DNA from: Pseudomonas putida
GTDB taxonomy: Bacteria; Pseudomonadota; Gammaproteobacteria; Pseudomonadales; Pseudomonadaceae
NCBI RefSeq assembly: GCF_025905425.1
Contig: NZ_CP109603.1
Location: 2,516,001 to 2,580,000, forward strand
Direction of reading: 5' to 3'
DNA: 64,000 bases
Shown: positions 57,664-64,000 of the stretch, piece after piece
Position numbering within the stretch: position 1 is the stretch's first letter
Layout of the letters: the number at the start of each line of letters is the position of its first letter
Notes under the pieces: generated by a model
Databases searched by the model: none
What the model was told of the DNA's origin: nothing
Seen by the model: the letters and a program-made list of their open reading frames with translations, nothing else
Made by a program: the position numbers and the translations under genes

Positions 57664-57756
57664 GGCCCCTTCGCGGGCAAGCCCGCTCCCACAGGGATTG
57701 CGTGATATCAAAGACTACGCAGTACCCGTGGGAGCGGGCTTGCCCGCGAATAGGCC
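57664..57756. repeat. Inverted REP pair after csgG
   Basis: An inverted copy (57664-57693) and a direct copy (57727-57756) of GTGGGAGCGGGCTTGCCCGCG flank a 33-nt spacer just beyond the csgG stop. The pair is nearly identical to the one embedded in the coding region at 63003-63083. Confidence 0.85.
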
Positions 57757-57767
57757 CTAAACGCCAA

Positions 57768-58619
57768 TCACGGCTGCTGATTCTGGCTCAGGTACTTGTC
57801 CACCGTCGCCTTGCCATCCCCCGCATCCCCCTGCACCTGCCACAACCGCCGCTCAATCCCCTGCGCCAGCAAGTGCCCCACCGCCGCCTCGATCGCCGAC
57901 AGCACGCACAGCTGCGCCGGTTCATTGGTGGTGTACCCCACCTCGGCCTCCAGCAACTTCTTGAATTCGATGAACTTGAACACCCCGGCACTGCGCCCGA
58001 CCGAATAGATGGTCTTGCTGGTCATCACGTTGGCCAGCACCTGCCCGGTGCGCACATCCACCGCGCGCAGGTTCACGGTCACCTGGTCCACCCGGTACTC
58101 GCGGGAGATATCGATACCCAGGTAGCGGGCGCCCTCGCCGCCACTGCGCACGTTGGTGTCGTAGGCGATGATGCCGCCTTCGAGCATCAGGTTTGCGGCC
58201 TGCAGCGGCGGCAGCTCGCCCATGATGTTCTCGGCCACGTCCGGCTTTTTCTGCGAGGCGCGGATGATCTTGCGTTCGGTCAGCAGGTTCTGCAGGCCTT
58301 CACGCTCCAGCACCACGAACCAGCCACTGGCGCTCAACGCATCCATCAGCATGCTTGCCGCGCCCTGGGTGACGCTGGTCGAGAACGAACTGGCCGGGGT
58401 CGGCTTGTACTGCCCGGTCTGGTCGCGGAAGCCGTACACCACCGCCATCAGCCGGCCCTTGGGGCGTGGCATGTTGATCAGGTCGTAGTAGGTCGAGGCG
58501 CGCGGGGTCAGGGTCGGGGTTTCCGAGTCCTGTTCGGCCGACATGGGTTCGCGCAGGCTGCAACCACTTTGCAGGCCCAGGGCGGTGAGAATCAGCAGCG
58601 TGCTCAGCAGACGTTTCAT
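57768..58619 (-). CDS. csgG: CsgG-family outer-membrane curli secretion channel
   Basis: This 283-aa lipoprotein has lipobox LQSGC (Cys 20). The family core is present: 'PKGRLMAVVYGFRDQTGQYK' followed by 'SSFSTSVTQGAASMLMDALS', 'WFVVLEREGLQNLLTERKII', 'YRVDQVTVNLRAVDVRTGQV' and 'IYSVGRSAGVFKFIEF'. CsgG forms the nonameric outer-membrane pore that exports curlin. It is the last gene of a transcript that begins off the right edge with type II secretion-like genes. No csgA or csgB is in the window. Confidence 0.95.
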   Translation of the reverse strand: MKRLLSTLLILTALGLQSGCSLREPMSAEQDSETPTLTPRASTYYDLINMPRPKGRLMAVVYGFRDQTGQYKPTPASSFSTSVTQGAASMLMDALSASGWFVVLEREGLQNLLTERKIIRASQKKPDVAENIMGELPPLQAANLMLEGGIIAYDTNVRSGGEGARYLGIDISREYRVDQVTVNLRAVDVRTGQVLANVMTSKTIYSVGRSAGVFKFIEFKKLLEAEVGYTTNEPAQLCVLSAIEAAVGHLLAQGIERRLWQVQGDAGDGKATVDKYLSQNQQP

Positions 58620-58653
58620 GGTGTTCTCTCCCCAACATAAAAGCCCTTCCCTC

Positions 58654-59067
58654 TCAGGGGTTCAGGCCGCTGACCTCAATGATCGAAATTTCTCCAGTGA
58701 CGCGGTCGGTGACCTTGATGCTCAACGCCCCTGAATCGTCGATGACGTCGATCAGGAAGGCATCGGTGGCCATGCTTCCGGTGCTGCCATTGCTGATGTT
58801 GTCCAACAGCTGCGACAACATCCGCGACTCCAGTTGGTTGCTGAAGCGCTCCAGGGCCGTGGTGCCGGAGAAGGCTGAAGCGCGGTCCTTGAGGTCGGGG
58901 TCGTCGTAGTCGTTCTGCGCCTGGGCGTTGTTGAGCAGCCAGGTGCCATTGAGCGGGTTGCCACCGAAGGCCGGGTTGACCGGGGTGTACACCAGCTCGG
59001 TGGCCTGGGCAGCACAGGCGCTGGCCAACAGGCAGGCGGCGATGCAACGGGGAATGCGGGTGTTCAT
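58654..59067 (-). CDS. csgF: CsgF-family curli assembly protein
   Basis: This 137-aa secreted protein has a signal peptide ('CIAACLLASACAAQATE') and the CsgF signature 'LVYTPVNPAFGGNPLNGTWL' plus 'LNNAQAQNDY'. It helps anchor the fibre nucleator at the CsgG pore. Its ATG overlaps the csgE stop (ATGA, 59064-59067), so the two are translationally coupled. The C-terminal half is rich in Asp and ends 'GEISIIEVSGLNP'. Confidence 0.94.
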   Translation of the reverse strand: MNTRIPRCIAACLLASACAAQATELVYTPVNPAFGGNPLNGTWLLNNAQAQNDYDDPDLKDRASAFSGTTALERFSNQLESRMLSQLLDNISNGSTGSMATDAFLIDVIDDSGALSIKVTDRVTGEISIIEVSGLNP

Positions 59068-59465
59068 AGCTCGTCCCTCTCCAGATCGGTGGTGTCCTGC
59101 AGCAAGCGTTGCAGCTTGCGTTGAATGATCTGCTGCTTGACCAGGTCGGCGGCCGCGATGGCCTCGTCTTTGAGTTCCGTGGTGTTGGGTGGCAGAAAAC
59201 GGCGGTACATCACTTCGCGTTCGAACTCCACGGTAACCAGGCTGCCCCAGCGGGCATCCGGGCGTTCGCGCACCACCAGGTTGAAATCCAGGCGGCTGGT
59301 GGCGCGCAGGCGGTCGGCGAAGTAGTAGTAGAAGTCGTGGCCGATGTGCGAGATGGTGTTGTCGACGATAAACCCCATCATCTCGTCCTCTTCAGCCGCC
59401 TTCAGCAGGCTGCTCGACGACGCCGCCAGCAGCAGGCTCAGGCACAGTGCAGCCAGGCGCTTCAT
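59064..59465 (-). CDS. csgE: CsgE-family curli secretion specificity factor
   Basis: This 133-aa periplasmic protein has a signal peptide ('LAALCLSLLLAASSSSLLKA'). The core reads 'DEMMGFIVDNTISHIGHDFY', 'RLRATSRLDFNLVVRERPDA' and 'VEFEREVMYRRFLPPN', typical of CsgE, the cap and specificity factor of the CsgG channel. Its ATG overlaps the stop of the preceding pseudopilin-like gene (59462-59465), which joins the curli and type II secretion parts into one translationally coupled array. Confidence 0.95.
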   Translation of the reverse strand: MKRLAALCLSLLLAASSSSLLKAAEEDEMMGFIVDNTISHIGHDFYYYFADRLRATSRLDFNLVVRERPDARWGSLVTVEFEREVMYRRFLPPNTTELKDEAIAAADLVKQQIIQRKLQRLLQDTTDLERDEL

Positions 59466-59989
59466 GGTGTGTCTCCCGCGCCAGCCTGGGGCTGGAGGCC
59501 ATTGGGGCTGTCGGCGAACGCCTGCTCGGCGACGAACTGCCAGTCGCTGTAGTGCTCCAACCCTTCAAAACCCGACCACTCGGCGGCAAAGCCACTGTGT
59601 TTGAACGGCGTGGCATCCGAGCGGCTATGCACGCCGGTGATGCGGCCGTCGATCGAGCGCAGCAGGCCCCAGTCGTCGCTGTTGGTGATCGGGTCCGGGT
59701 AGAGCCTGCGGATGTGCCGTTTGGCCTCGGGGAAACGGTTGTCCTGCAACAGGTCGGCCAGCTCCTGTGGGTACTGGGCCAGCCCCGGCGACGCTCGGTA
59801 ATAGCTGCGCAGCGCCTGGGCGTACTGGCTGCCGACCCACAGCAACTGGCGCTCGTGATCGCGCTGAGCGGCGCTCGACCAGATCGTCCCGGTGGCGGCC
59901 AGGGCCACGCTGCTGACTGCAATCAGCAGCAACACGCCCAGGTAGGTGAAGCCGGCACAGGCCTTACCACTCGGCATAGAGGCTGCCAT
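59462..59989 (-). CDS. Divergent pseudopilin-like protein lacking Glu5
   Basis: This 175-aa protein has GGAGGG upstream of its ATG at 59989. It has a short leader, then 'GFTYLGVLLLIAVSSVALAA', a type IV pilin-type hydrophobic segment where the usual GFTLIE is GFTYLG. The +5 Glu is absent, as in GspK minor pseudopilins. The C-terminal domain is unlike GspG ('WVGSQYAQALRSYYRASPG'). Its position between GspG-like proteins and csgE suggests a minor tip pseudopilin. Function is inferred only from motif and context. Confidence 0.8.
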   Translation of the reverse strand: MAASMPSGKACAGFTYLGVLLLIAVSSVALAATGTIWSSAAQRDHERQLLWVGSQYAQALRSYYRASPGLAQYPQELADLLQDNRFPEAKRHIRRLYPDPITNSDDWGLLRSIDGRITGVHSRSDATPFKHSGFAAEWSGFEGLEHYSDWQFVAEQAFADSPNGLQPQAGAGDTP

Positions 59990-60338
59990 CACGCGCCCTC
60001 CCTGTTGCACCGCTCTTGATGTCGGCCACACCACCGGCCACGCCTTCTGGCGGCGGCACCAGCTGCCAGGCATCGCTGCGCTCGGTGATGGGGTCGACCG
60101 GGGTGTTGCGCAGGTAGCGCAGTTCGACCAATTGCTCCAGCGAATCGGGGTACTTCCCGGTGTCGCCATAGAAGTGGTCCAGCGACTCGCGCAACACCGC
60201 CAGGCTCTGGCGCAGGGTGGCCTCGCGGGAGCTCTCCAGGCTGTTGAAGTAGCGCGGCATGGCAATGGTCATCAGCGTGGCGATGATCGCCATCACCACC
60301 AGCAGTTCGATCAGGGTGAAGCCTTGGCTGCGTTTCAT
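59964..60338 (-). CDS. GspG/GspH-type pseudopilin
   Basis: This 124-aa protein starts at the ATG at 60338 with GGTGA upstream; an ATG at 60350 is also in frame. It has the prepilin cleavage motif 'KRSQGFTLIELLVVMAIIAT' with Glu at position +5, then a short globular domain ('LRESLDHFYGDTGKYPDSLE', 'RNTPVDPITERSDAW'). This is the usual major pseudopilin plan. It overlaps the following gene by 26 nt and starts six bases after the preceding gene stop. Confidence 0.88.
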   Translation of the reverse strand: MKRSQGFTLIELLVVMAIIATLMTIAMPRYFNSLESSREATLRQSLAVLRESLDHFYGDTGKYPDSLEQLVELRYLRNTPVDPITERSDAWQLVPPPEGVAGGVADIKSGATGRARDGSLYAEW

Positions 60339-60343
60339 GGCCG

Positions 60344-60817
60344 TCACCATTGCCCGTAGGGGATGTTGTTGAGGCCTTTGCCACGGGCCTTGGAGTACAC
60401 GTCGAAGACGTCTTCGCCTTCACGCGGGCTGTCGGGGCTGCTGTCGTAGGCACGCAGGCCCCAGGCGCCCTCATCGTCATCCTTGGCCGCCAGCAGCGGG
60501 TCGTGGGGGATGCGCCGCAGGAAGTAGAACTTGGCCCCTTTGGCACTGCGTACATCGCGCACGCCCTCGACCAGGACCTGCAGGTTGGGTGGGTAGCCGC
60601 TGGCATCCAGGCGTTTCTCGATGTACCCGGCGTCGAAGGCGCGCTTGTAGGCATCGATGGCATCGCGGATCTGGTACAGCGCCTCGCGCAGTTGCTGCTC
60701 CTTACCGCGACGGACCACGGTTTCGGTCAGCGGCGCGGCCATGCTGGCGAGCAGCCCGAGCAGTGCCAGGGTCAGCACCACCTCGATCAGGCTGAAGCCT
60801 TGCATGCGGCGTTTCAT
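60344..60817 (-). CDS. GspG-like pseudopilin
   Basis: This 157-aa protein has the motif 'KRRMQGFSLIEVVLTLALLG' with Glu at +5, an alpha-helical stem ('QLREALYQIRDAIDAYKRAF') and a C-terminal 'FYFLRRIPHDPLLAAKDD' leading into 'GLRAYDSSPDSP', which resembles the calcium-binding loop region of major pseudopilins. It starts in a 4-nt overlap with the secretin stop (60814-60817). It would be assembled into the pseudopilus at the inner membrane. Confidence 0.88.
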   Translation of the reverse strand: MKRRMQGFSLIEVVLTLALLGLLASMAAPLTETVVRRGKEQQLREALYQIRDAIDAYKRAFDAGYIEKRLDASGYPPNLQVLVEGVRDVRSAKGAKFYFLRRIPHDPLLAAKDDDEGAWGLRAYDSSPDSPREGEDVFDVYSKARGKGLNNIPYGQW

Positions 60818-62679
60818 GGCTGCGGGCTCCCAGTGGCGGGCACTACGGCCATCTGGCTTTGCACGGTCGGCGTGTCACTGGACGGCGCATTGCCCGGTAC
60901 ATCGGTCGGTGGCAATGGCGCCATCTGGCGCACCTGCAGGCTCGATTCGGTGCCGGTGGCGAACTCCATGTCCGAAGGGCTTTGGTACGGCAGGTTGCGC
61001 ACGATGCGTGGGGTAATCGCCAGCACCAGTTCCGACTTGCTCATGTCGTCCTTGTTGCTGCCAAACAGCCGGCCCAGGCCGGGAATGTCACCCAGGCCCG
61101 GGATTTTGTTGCCGCTGGCGTTGTGGTCGTTACGCACCAGCCCGGCCAGCACCTGCGTTTCGCCGTCGTGCAGGCGCAGGCTGGTCTGGGCGTTGCGGGT
61201 ATCGACCTGGACCGGGATGGTGCCCTGGCGCGTGGCTTCCAGCGGGGTGGCGTTGCTCACCTCCAGCGCGATCTTGATCGCCACTTCGTTGTTCAGGTGC
61301 ACGGTGGGCTGCACTTCGAGTTTCAGACCCACATCCAGGTAGGTGACGCTCTCGGTGATCACCGGGCCCTGGGTCGAAGGCACCGAGGTGGCGCTGATGA
61401 TCGGCACCCGCTGGCCGATGTGGATGCGCGCCTGCTCGCGGTTGCTGACGCGGATCACCGGGCTTGCCAGGGTATTGATGTCCTTGTCCTGGGCGTTGAT
61501 CTTGGCCTGCGGCGCCGGCGAGATGCCGATGCGGCTGGAGTCGATGCCGCGCAACTGGTCTAGCACGCTGACCGGCTTGCCGTCGGAGGTCAGCACGCCG
61601 AAGGTATTGGGCCATTGCAGGCCGAGGTCGAGGATGCGCGAGGTGGCCACTTCCATCACCTCCACTTCCAGCACCACCTCAGGGTTGGACTGGTCCTGGG
61701 ATTGCAGCAGTTTCTCGGCCATGCGCACCGCATCCGGGCTGTCGCGCATGGTCAAGGTGTTGAGGCGCTCGTCGACGAAAACGTCACGGGTCTTGAGCAT
61801 GGTCTTGACCATGTTCAGCGCCGTGTTGGCGTCGATGCTGGTCAGGTAGAAGGTGCGCATGACCAGTTCCTGATAGTCCTTGGTCTTCTGCGGCGAGTCG
61901 GGGTAGATCATCAGGGTGTTGTCGTTGACGATCTTCTGGCGCAGCTGGTTCTGCTCCAGCAGCAGGGCCACGGCGTCCTCGATGCGCACCTCGCGAACGA
62001 AGATGGTGGCCTTCATGTCGGGGCGCAGGTCTTTGTCGAAGATGAAGTTGATACCGGCAACCTGGGACAGCACTTCGAAGATGGTCTTCAGGTTGGCATC
62101 GCGAAACTCCAGGGTCACCGGCCGCTCCAGCTTGCTGCGCAGCTGCGGGAATGGCTGTGCGGTGCGCGCCTGGACGTTCTCGATGTCGCTGCGCAGGGTC
62201 ATGCCCTTCTGGTTCTGCGGGTCCAGGCGCAGCACTTCGCGCATGTAGCGCTCGGCGCCAAACAAGTCACCCTGGCGCAGGGCCGCCTGGCCGAGAGCGA
62301 CACGTTCGTCAAGGGTGCGGATCAGCTCCAGCTGGCGGTTGCCCTCCTGGGCGCGGCGGTTGTTCGGTTCGATGCTCAGCACCCGCCCATAGCCCATGCG
62401 CGCACCGGCAAAGTCGTGACGGATACGGTCGCTGTCGGCCTGGCTCAACAGTGCCTCGACCGCTGCCTGGCGGCCATGGGCCAGGGCGATGTTCAGTTCG
62501 GTGTCGCGCGGGTCGTCACGCAGGGCCTCTTCCAGGCGCGCGATCCCGGCTTCGTACTGCCCCTCCTTCATCAGTTCTGCGCTGTCTTCGCGTACCGCAC
62601 TGGAGCCGCAGCCCGCGATGGCCACGCACAGCGCCAACAGCAGGAACGGAGCAGGCTTGCACAGCTTCGATGACTTCAT
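60814..62679 (-). CDS. Secretin (GspD/MshL-like lipoprotein)
   Basis: This 621-aa protein has lipobox IAGC (Cys 24), TPR-like repeats in the N-terminal part ('ARLEEALRDDPRDTELNIAL', 'YMREVLRLDPQNQKG'), a secretin N1/STN region ('LEFRDANLKTIFEVLSQVAG', 'INFIFDKDLRPDM') and the conserved secretin C-domain ('VPIISATSVPSTQGPVITES', 'VLAGLVRNDHNASGNKIPGL'). The N-terminal TPR lipoprotein form is unlike canonical GspD and closer to MSHA/type IV pilus secretins. It forms an outer-membrane pore. Confidence 0.92.
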   Translation of the reverse strand: MKSSKLCKPAPFLLLALCVAIAGCGSSAVREDSAELMKEGQYEAGIARLEEALRDDPRDTELNIALAHGRQAAVEALLSQADSDRIRHDFAGARMGYGRVLSIEPNNRRAQEGNRQLELIRTLDERVALGQAALRQGDLFGAERYMREVLRLDPQNQKGMTLRSDIENVQARTAQPFPQLRSKLERPVTLEFRDANLKTIFEVLSQVAGINFIFDKDLRPDMKATIFVREVRIEDAVALLLEQNQLRQKIVNDNTLMIYPDSPQKTKDYQELVMRTFYLTSIDANTALNMVKTMLKTRDVFVDERLNTLTMRDSPDAVRMAEKLLQSQDQSNPEVVLEVEVMEVATSRILDLGLQWPNTFGVLTSDGKPVSVLDQLRGIDSSRIGISPAPQAKINAQDKDINTLASPVIRVSNREQARIHIGQRVPIISATSVPSTQGPVITESVTYLDVGLKLEVQPTVHLNNEVAIKIALEVSNATPLEATRQGTIPVQVDTRNAQTSLRLHDGETQVLAGLVRNDHNASGNKIPGLGDIPGLGRLFGSNKDDMSKSELVLAITPRIVRNLPYQSPSDMEFATGTESSLQVRQMAPLPPTDVPGNAPSSDTPTVQSQMAVVPATGSPQP

Positions 62680-63185
62680 GGTGCGCTCCCGACAGACAAG
62701 GTCTGCGACTGATGCAAAGGCAGGTAGACCAGGCTCAGCTCGTTGGCCGAGACCCGGTCGAGGCGGTAGGTGTCTTCGATGACGTCGCCTTGGCGCACGA
62801 CGTAGAGCTTTTCGCCACTCTGCAGAAACACCTGCAGGTCATCGCGGTCGCCCAGGCGTCCGACGAACTGGAAGGGCAGCTCCGGGGCGGTGGGTGCGGC
62901 GACCACCACGGGTGCGGCGATGACCGGTTGTTCGGTGACGGTGGCCAGGGTTTGAGGTTTGCTCCAGCGCTGGCTCGGGAACAGATCGGTGGAGGCCTGT
63001 TCCGGCCTGTTCGCAGGCAAGCCCGCTCCCACAGGTTCCATGGGCACCCCCGATCCTGTGGGAGCGGGCTTGCCCGCGAAGGCGGCAACGCCGTCCTCCT
63101 GGCCAAACCAGTGCCCAGGCGCCCACGCCAACACGGCAGAAAGCCCCAAAAACCCAACCCAGATCAGCGCACGTTGAGTATTCAT
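62676..63185 (-). CDS. GspC/PilP-like inner-membrane linker with an in-frame REP pair
   Basis: This 169-aa protein starts at the ATG at 63185, overlapping the previous stop (ATGA). One N-terminal helix ('ALIWVGFLGLSAVLAWAP') is followed by a flexible part and a C-terminal HR/PilP-like domain ('LPFQFVGRLGDRDDLQVFLQ' and 'GEKLYVVRQGDVIEDTYRLD'). Between about residues 34 and 61 the protein reads 'FAGKPAPTGSG', five residues, then 'VGAGLPANRPEQ', which is the translation of an inverted REP pair in the open frame. The domain after it links the inner-membrane platform to the secretin. Confidence 0.82.
   Translation of the reverse strand: MNTQRALIWVGFLGLSAVLAWAPGHWFGQEDGVAAFAGKPAPTGSGVPMEPVGAGLPANRPEQASTDLFPSQRWSKPQTLATVTEQPVIAAPVVVAAPTAPELPFQFVGRLGDRDDLQVFLQSGEKLYVVRQGDVIEDTYRLDRVSANELSLVYLPLHQSQTLSVGSAP
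63003..63083. repeat. Inverted REP pair inside a coding sequence
   Basis: One REP (63003-63034) and its inverted copy (63056-63083) are separated by about 21 nt and lie wholly within the GspC/PilP-like gene without breaking its frame. The core sequence is the same GTGGGAGCGGGCTTGCC element found between genes elsewhere in the window. Confidence 0.85.
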
Positions 63186-63748
63186 CACGACCTCGACAAG
63201 TAGAGGGTCATGCGCAGGCGGGCGTTGAGCTCGCTGTCGCCGATGCGTTTGCGTTGCAGCTCAAGGTCTTCCAGCACCAAGGTTGGCAGCTGGCCAAGCA
63301 GCCCCTTGAGGAAGCCGCGAATCTGCGGGTAACTGCCGCGTACCGGCAACACGATCTGGTAGCGCGCCAACTGGGTTTTCGGGTCGATGCCCAAGGCGTA
63401 TTCGCCGCGTGCCAGGCTGATGTGCTCGGCACTGGCCAGGTGATACAGGCGCTCGATCAGTTCGCTGGCCTGCGGCTGACCGGGCAGTTGCTGACGCAGG
63501 GTGTCGAGGGCCTGCTGCTCGGGTTTGACGGCGATTTTCAGCTCGCCGCGCTGCACCCGCCCTACTTGCACACTGGCGTCCGCCTCGCTGGCGCGCAGTT
63601 CGCGCACGGTATGCCAGTGCGGCAACACACCGGCCAATGCCACACCGACGGCCAGCAAACCAACGGCGACGGCAGCCAGGCCCACCGGGCCTACGCGGCG
63701 CAGGTGCTCCTGAATGATCAGGCTGCTGAGCGGATCAGGGGCGCGCAT
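63185..63748 (-). CDS. GspM/PilO-like assembly platform protein
   Basis: This 187-aa protein has one N-terminal membrane helix ('GLAAVAVGLLAVGVALAGVL'), a coiled stretch and a ferredoxin-like C-terminal domain ('YQIVLPVRGSYPQIRGFLKG', 'LLGQLPTLVLEDLELQRKRI'). It starts at the ATG at 63748 and overlaps both neighbours. PilO/GspM proteins dimerise and couple the cytoplasmic ATPase platform to the periplasmic parts. Confidence 0.82.
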   Translation of the reverse strand: MRAPDPLSSLIIQEHLRRVGPVGLAAVAVGLLAVGVALAGVLPHWHTVRELRASEADASVQVGRVQRGELKIAVKPEQQALDTLRQQLPGQPQASELIERLYHLASAEHISLARGEYALGIDPKTQLARYQIVLPVRGSYPQIRGFLKGLLGQLPTLVLEDLELQRKRIGDSELNARLRMTLYLSRS

Positions 63749-64000
63749 GGCCGGTCTCCCAGGTAGCGGTAAGGGTGAAGCGCACCGGGTGCTCCGGCTG
63801 GCCCATCATCACCTCGTGGTTGAGCAACGAAACATCGCTGAGCTCGGCACTGGCCTCCAGCCGTTGGTGGTACTGCAGCATCGCTTCCAGGTTGCGCGCT
63901 TCGGCGGCGATACGGACCTGGCCCTTGCGGGCGTCCGGGGTCAGGCCAAGCAGCGCCACATCGTCCTGCGGCTGCGCTTCGAGCATGGCGAACAGTTGCT
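63735..64000 (-). CDS. PilN/GspL-like protein (partial, N-terminus off the right edge)
   Basis: The open frame runs through the window edge; the ATG at 63986 is internal, since the codons before it read QLFA in frame. The visible C-terminal part includes 'MLEAQPQDDVALLGLTPDAR', 'KGQVRIAAEARNLEAMLQYH' and 'VRFTLTATWETG', the ferredoxin-like periplasmic domain of PilN-type proteins. It overlaps the GspM/PilO gene by 14 nt, continuing the chain of coupled genes. Confidence 0.75.
   Translation of the reverse strand, partial: QLFAMLEAQPQDDVALLGLTPDARKGQVRIAAEARNLEAMLQYHQRLEASAELSDVSLLNHEVMMGQPEHPVRFTLTATWETGHARP

Follow-up and report, generated by a model that had tools for sequence, protein, structure and literature searches.

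The locus considered here belongs to a Pseudomonas putida genome (6.14 Mb, one contig; assembly GCF_025905425.1, NZ_CP109603.1) and raises the question of why the operon of a type II-like exporter should end in csgE, csgF and csgG, the genes of the curli exporter. The window, i.e. the whole stretch of 64,000 nucleotides that was analysed (positions 2,516,001 to 2,580,000 of the forward strand), carries this row of genes on the minus strand at its right-hand end. The cluster itself is already known, as the Xcm (Gsp-related) genes plus attached csg (csm) genes; as to why an oxidase exporter shares an operon with a curli exporter, no answer was found in the literature searched. The explanation favoured here, with a probability of about two in three, is that one operon serves two exporters with separate clients, the multicopper oxidase MnxG for Xcm and the curlins for CsgEFG, expressed together as one programme.

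According to this explanation, Xcm (GspE, the PilM-, PilN-, PilO- and PilP-like proteins, the secretin and three pseudopilins, together with XcmT1 and XcmS) would be a type II-like machine which most likely moves the giant MnxG over the outer membrane, while CsgE, CsgF and CsgG would form an ordinary curli exporter with the CsgB/CsgA curlin pair as its client. The operons are probably activated jointly by sigma-54 and an MnxR-like activator, so that manganese oxidase and amyloid would be deposited together on the cell surface.

In the published Xcm-Csm layout, xcmX reportedly has two xcpT-like genes on one side and csmEFG on the other, and xcmT1 and xcmS form a pair set apart. The same arrangement is found here: XcmX is flanked by two pseudopilins and by csgE/F/G, the XcpR and XcpQ homologues (GspE and the secretin) lie in the cluster, and the XcpS and XcpT homologues form a separate pair, a division also reported for that layout. 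The closest named match of XcmX, from P. capeferrum WCS358, is 97% identical (records of the own genome were possibly excluded). By its title, as cited, the work of de Vrind et al. (2003) concerns a Gsp-related pathway which P. putida GB-1 needs to secrete its manganese-oxidising factor; general secretory pathway genes were recovered in transposon screens for manganese oxidation (PMC3056050, citing de Vrind et al. 2003); and the Xcm cluster has been described in WCS358, being also known from GB-1 and KT2440 (PMC4509608, citing the same work). In the accessible text of PMC4509608 two sentences deal with Xcm, the main text is without the word curli, and manganese appears once, in the reference list. 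For curli and MnxG jointly, only PMC3056050 turned up, and its accessible text handles curli and manganese oxidation in separate sections; the gene names (xcmX, csmE and others) gave only unrelated papers among the matches listed. As far as found in the literature searched, the co-occurrence pattern, the super-locus of mnxG, Xcm, csgEFG and curlin genes, and the sigma-54-like sites described below are new.

Co-occurrence was followed in 99 Pseudomonas genomes, the own genome included, whose genome lists were compared by eye. XcmX was found in 40 of them, with 34 strong (E below 1e-81) and six weak (1e-31 to 1e-35) matches, and MnxG, at a threshold of 1e-40, in 34, a set identical to that of strong XcmX, the two sharing a contig in 32. 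CsgE directly adjoins XcmX in all 34 strong-XcmX genomes and occurs in 36 of the 99, namely these 34 plus G020 and G068; none of the six weak-XcmX genomes showed CsgE, curlin or MnxG in this survey. Moreover, among 80 named loci, which overlap in part with the 99 genomes (e.g. L111 and G077), csgE-csgF-csgG lie downstream of XcmX in 78, so that the gene order which the first-pass annotation had proposed to look for in other genomes is indeed recurrent.

Curlin repeats are present in exactly the 36 genomes carrying CsgE, and for this reason the unknown CsgE-recognised substrate which that annotation had suggested was rejected as the default. Its statement that curlin genes are lacking is true of the operon but not of the genome, in which csgB- and csgA-like genes were located (C1:2257816-2259526), in a block with two Ig-type secreted proteins, Ig2 and IgBig (2.258-2.263 Mb, about 315 kb from csgE). 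Since the CsgG of the operon is the only CsgG match in the whole genome, it is the obvious exporter of these curlins. Judging from the matches listed, 22 of 34 genomes have their curlins less than 8 kb away from csgE, on the opposite strand and convergent, which corresponds to 22 of the 27 cases with both on the same contig.

The first-pass annotation had read the same row of genes as a joint type II/curli system. In terms of the known cluster, such a machine would have the Xcm pseudopilus and CsgG/E/F work on one export route, with MnxG or a fibre, for instance, passing with the aid of both pores. The short or ATGA overlaps it described are conserved across the 80 named loci compared, gene starts being approximate: the ATGA overlap was seen at the XcmX-CsgE joint in 75 of 78 loci, at CsgE-CsgF in 78 of 78, between the PilP-like gene and the secretin in 79 of 79 and between secretin and XcmT2 in 48 of 79, with median overlaps of 2 to 53 nt at the remaining Xcm joints; csgF and csgG are separated instead by a gap (median 32 nt). 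The XcmX-CsgE overlap speaks for a single route, as does the lack of an MnxG match in L122 and L163, the two members of the clade without csg, a point weakened by L122 being a metagenome-assembled genome. Against it stand 13 Xcm-type clusters which do not belong to the MnxG-linked clade and show no csg genes in the stretches fetched (four of them in Pseudomonas genomes with no CsgE anywhere), the existence of stand-alone csgEFG with curlins, and the alignment of CsgG, CsgE and CsgF as ordinary curli proteins, with curlins accompanying CsgE in 36 of 36 cases. With the machine recognised as the known Xcm pathway and CsgEFG provided with a curlin client, the joint system is not supported, and we regard it as very improbable.

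The 13 clusters without csg all have GspE, GspF and GspG homologues. Of the six weak-XcmX Pseudomonas genomes four were read (G004 and G040 were left out); their clusters (L053, L054, L064, L066) show XcmT2-T3-X, a gene for a lytic polysaccharide monooxygenase (LPMO), XcmT1, a transglycosylase-like gene, XcmS, GspE and the inner-membrane genes, the fetched stretch stopping inside the secretin. The nine clusters from other genera (seven genomes; L079+L080, L081, L082, L084+L085, L086, L087, L088, L089, L090), where csg was sought within the fetched stretches, share one row, from XcmT1-XcmS-GspE through the secretin to XcmT2-T3-X, although small inner-membrane genes fall under the match limit in some (e.g. 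PilM in L086, L087 and L088). A 5 kb stub (L083) was excluded from the count, and G345, with a weak XcmX (E 2.8e-9), was left out. Judged by this comparison, the MnxG-linked Pseudomonas clade seems to be derived in two respects, in having csgEFG at this site and in having XcmT1/XcmS split off. In a search of 398 Pseudomonadota, MnxG was found in two genomes, the own one and G199 (44% over 433 of 1948 residues), both with XcmX, which is too few to weigh; the Xcm-type cluster of G199 (L090) has no csg genes nearby, the rest of that genome being outside the search.

In the four curli-free Pseudomonas clusters the LPMO or chitin-binding protein gene (identified by Pfam for L053 and by similarity for L054, L064 and L066) stands between xcmX and xcmT1. 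These clusters may be kin of Txc of P. paraeruginosa PA7 (PMC12369383, as far as its accessible text goes), in which a type II secretion system is combined with two-component regulation and a cargo that binds chitin (CbpE); the cargo is different, and the likeness is drawn from the published description. Outside Pseudomonas, L086:2-8829 carries several multicopper-oxidase-type genes in succession, the first of them checked by Pfam, and with them subtilisin-like, SCO and cytochrome c fusion genes; among the nine clusters from other genera, this is the one seen beside multicopper-oxidase genes. For the other eight the Pfam scan covered some neighbours of L079, L082 and L088, and no copper oxidoreductase was found among these. 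PEP-CTERM proteins are encoded downstream of L079 (G456) and L082 (G117), and two RHS-repeat protein genes downstream of the cluster in G446 (L088:9792-17821), so that copper enzymes are not the rule beside Xcm-type clusters. Some Xcm-type machines, to judge from the csg-less relatives, may be devoted to one copper oxidoreductase, be it LPMO or manganese oxidase.

The converse situation, csgEFG beside curlins without Xcm, was found in G020 and G068 and as second copies in G042, G060 and G087. Thus the two parts, whose occurrence apart the first-pass annotation had named as telling against a joint system, do in part occur separately; within the MnxG-linked clade they rarely separate, with two exceptions among 80 loci. 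In these exceptions, L122 and L163 (P. fluorescens PS691), Xcm is present and no csgE/F/G match was obtained after XcmX at 0.01. In the L122 genome CsgE, curlin and MnxG all gave no match, absences which are weak because the assembly may be incomplete; in that of L163, CsgE is encoded apart from the cluster, along with curlins, and a 52-aa piece of MnxG is left in the locus. At 1e-20 neither genome gave an MnxG match with the query that had found the 34 genomes. Small as the numbers are, these two loci fit with csgEFG and MnxG being parts of one trait.

As regards the client of Xcm, MnxG is pointed to by the published pathway, by adjacency, by the strict co-occurrence and by the copper enzymes beside some relatives. 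The genes upstream of the Xcm operon encode a SurA-N protein, a cytochrome c/periplasmic-binding fusion, two SCO proteins, a beta-propeller protein and the multicopper oxidase MnxG (1959 aa, about 13 kb upstream), which matched the solved MnxG structure 9bxa at 1.1e-72; these operon partners agree with the mnxG operon described in the accessible part of PMC8218464. Alternatively, Xcm could export one of the neighbouring secreted proteins, Ig2, IgBig (with Big domains) or the beta-propeller protein, which would then hold the oxidase at the surface. The Ig-type proteins adjoin the curlins and, as paralogues, also the second MnxG-like gene of this genome (L048:102-10313, C1:1.808-1.819 Mb; 73-75% identical), which is divergent from them; the copper oxidoreductases that Xcm-type clusters outside the clade can carry (LPMO in four of four curli-free Pseudomonas, multicopper oxidase in one of nine from other genera) argue against such clients, and we regard this alternative as unlikely.

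The missing components of the machine were also located. The first-pass annotation had proposed a search for GspE and GspF to the right of the window; GspE is there, while GspF and the major GspG lie elsewhere, as a pair at 2.206 Mb (L012:3302-4935). This pair is taken as XcmT1/XcmS because its GspF is, among the three of the genome, the nearest to XcmS of all 13 outside clusters, with identities of 37-49% versus 26-31% for the other two. Next to the pair lie two histidine kinase genes, taken for MnxS1 and MnxS2, and one for a response regulator of the sigma-54 type, taken for MnxR.

Genes of the mnxS/mnxR type also adjoin the curlin block in five of six genomes fetched past it (the exception being G077), the mnxR-like genes there being 70-79% identical and three genomes having mnxS2 and mnxR only; the six were chosen, G027 because mnxS2 was already known there. 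A SCO-like gene was observed between the mnxS1- and mnxS2-like genes of L182 and L183 (G087, G088). Furthermore, a sigma-54-like site (GG...GC core) stands before the regulator gene at the head of the Xcm operon; in this genome it scores 11 of 12 (none of 300 shuffles as good), and all ten relatives scanned have one at 63-79 nt, with scores of 11 (n=3), 10 (n=3) and 9 (n=4). Further sites were found in this genome upstream of the curlin block (score 11; one of 300 shuffles as good) and of mnxG (score 10; six of 300). Sites for sigma-54 and integration host factor (IHF) have been predicted at the mnxG and mcoA promoters (PMC11930936), and an rpoN insertion in a related strain abolishes manganese oxidation (PMC11409713), both according to the parts of these papers that were accessible.

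These arrangements bear on a further possibility, namely that csgEFG joined the Xcm operon by chance as passengers, curli being unrelated to manganese oxidation. In its favour, the members are all related Pseudomonas and could have inherited a single ancient joining event, curli and Xcm each exist separately elsewhere, and in some genomes the curlin block lies away from csgG. The retention of the linkage in nearly all named loci, the presence of curlins and mnxS/R-like genes within the same locus in some genomes and the sigma-54-like sites before the operons point the other way, as does the second MnxG gene of G087 (L047:5269-15432), which is divergent from a stand-alone curli operon in a stretch with no Xcm genes. 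On balance, a chance association seems improbable. The distance matrices of Xcm and Csg proteins are correlated (r 0.69-0.85, 76 loci), as joint inheritance would give; this correlation cannot separate function from shared ancestry and was not used as support.

Several points weigh against two co-expressed exporters with these clients. The 99 genomes are of one genus with common ancestry, and the 34 of 34 are not 34 independent events. Curlins lie further off on the csgE contig in five genomes (36 to 316 kb, this genome being the farthest) and on a different contig in seven, so that adjacency of csgE and curlins is not required; moreover, the curlin block falls inside the fetched flank in only 23 of the 60 named loci longer than 20 kb. 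In the 11 named loci where 800 nt or more could be seen past the curlin block, an mnxS-like gene was found in three (L152, L158, L168) and was absent in eight, from which this part of the locus is seen to vary. The names MnxS and MnxR follow from architecture and place only, and not from comparison with the GB-1 proteins. The sigma-54 sites are consensus matches, and the score of 9 of four of the ten relatives is a level reached 51 times on both strands of the window (128 kb; at least 10 seven times, at least 11 once); upstream of the curlin block (Ig2) in relatives a site was seen in four of five cases, at varying distance, and upstream of xcmT1 no good site was found (score 8; 95 of 300 shuffles as good). 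MnxG, as against Ig2, IgBig and the propeller protein, is inferred as a client indirectly, and the strain is known here from its genes, from which transcript, secretion and localisation are inferred.

The features of the row are collected in Table 1. The gene content given by the first-pass annotation (PilN- and PilO-like genes, secretin, pseudopilins and csgE/F/G on one strand) was borne out by Pfam and gene calls.

Table 1. Features at the right-hand end of the window (positions within the window)
Feature	Position	Strand	Basis
Inverted REP pair 3' of csgG	57670..57750	.	repeat copies 57670-57692 and 57728-57750
csgG, curli outer-membrane pore lipoprotein	57768..58619	-	PF03783 3.5e-82; solved E. 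coli CsgG 1.3e-83
csgF	58654..59067	-	PF10614 3.8e-32; solved CsgF 1.3e-26 across residues 6-136
csgE	59064..59465	-	PF10627 1.5e-38; solved CsgE 6.1e-16
xcmX-like divergent pseudopilin, 175 aa	59462..59989	-	alignment: Gly instead of Glu at mature position 5
Pseudopilin labelled XcmT3 (T2SSG-like)	59964..60350	-	N_methyl 4.6e-10; T2SSG 0.0045, below cut-off
Pseudopilin labelled XcmT2	60344..60817	-	N_methyl 1.6e-6
Secretin, lipoprotein/TPR N-terminus	60814..62679	-	Secretin 1.4e-40, STN, TPR; under NCBIfam GspD and PilQ cut-offs
PilP/GspC-position protein	62676..63185	-	position and order only; C-terminal half conserved among 18 aligned relatives
Inverted REP pair within PilP-like gene	63010..63080	.	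in frame
PilO/GspM-b-like	63185..63748	-	PF10741 5.2e-7, PF04350 3.2e-5
PilN-like, extending past the right edge to about L002:7281	63735..64000	-	PF05137 3e-4, just under cut-off

Past the right edge of the window the row goes on with a PilM-like gene, the gene for GspE and that for the response regulator at the head of the Xcm operon. The PilM-like protein gave no match in the Pfam scan and is named from position and gene order, and the PilP-like protein has zero Pfam family matches. N-methylation motifs are present in both XcmT2 and XcmT3. XcmX has 351 homologues at E<=1e-3, with Pseudomonas prevailing among the 120 of them listed; its structure model (pLDDT 71.8) found major pseudopilins as all 11 best PDB matches, weakly (E 0.027-0.45). 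With regard to the canonical type II system, GspD (159 of 351 bits), GspE (479 of 630) and GspF (XcmS, 291.5 of 424) are all under the curated equivalog cut-offs, and only GspG (XcmT1) is over it (193 vs 89); for GspL and GspC, to which the PilM- and PilP-like proteins would correspond, distant homology is possible, and the protein at the GspM position matches both T2SSM_b and PilO. The equivalog cut-offs of the type IV pilus are not reached either (PilB 455.5 of 675.7, PilQ 149 of 284 bits).

The curli part, on the other hand, is homologous over nearly the full length to CsgE, CsgF and CsgG of E. coli (type VIII), with curlins also in this genome, and differs from E. coli in sharing an operon with a type II-like machine. 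In the CsgG pore, E. coli Tyr51 and Asn55 are replaced by Thr and Ser, and Phe56 is retained (E. coli numbering); the motif GQYKPTPASSF is found in 85 of 94 CsgG sequences. These residues were ruled out as a sign of a special cargo, given that stand-alone curli CsgG is also without the E. coli Tyr and Asn. The terminator after csgG, which the first-pass annotation took to be shared by the row, was likewise discarded: the terminator scan lists nothing 3' of csgG, where the inverted repeat lies, presumably a repetitive extragenic palindromic (REP) element of P. putida. The second REP pair codes for part of the linker of the PilP-like protein, and in several close relatives a comparable linker peptide can be made out.

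In the genomes compared, curli and manganese oxidation look like aspects of a single trait, which leads to the testable proposal that curli and the manganese oxidase are one co-regulated surface trait. More tentatively, as a possibility we rate somewhat below even, curli amyloid may be integral to the way Pseudomonas carries out manganese biomineralisation: an ancestral super-locus (mnxG operon, Xcm, csgEFG, curlins with the two Ig-type proteins, mnxS/mnxR) would make and export the manganese oxidase and anchor it in an amyloid matrix under one sigma-54 switch, the fibres being the surface on which manganese oxide forms. If true, this would tie the amyloid matrix to manganese oxide formation, with relevance for water treatment and metal cycling.

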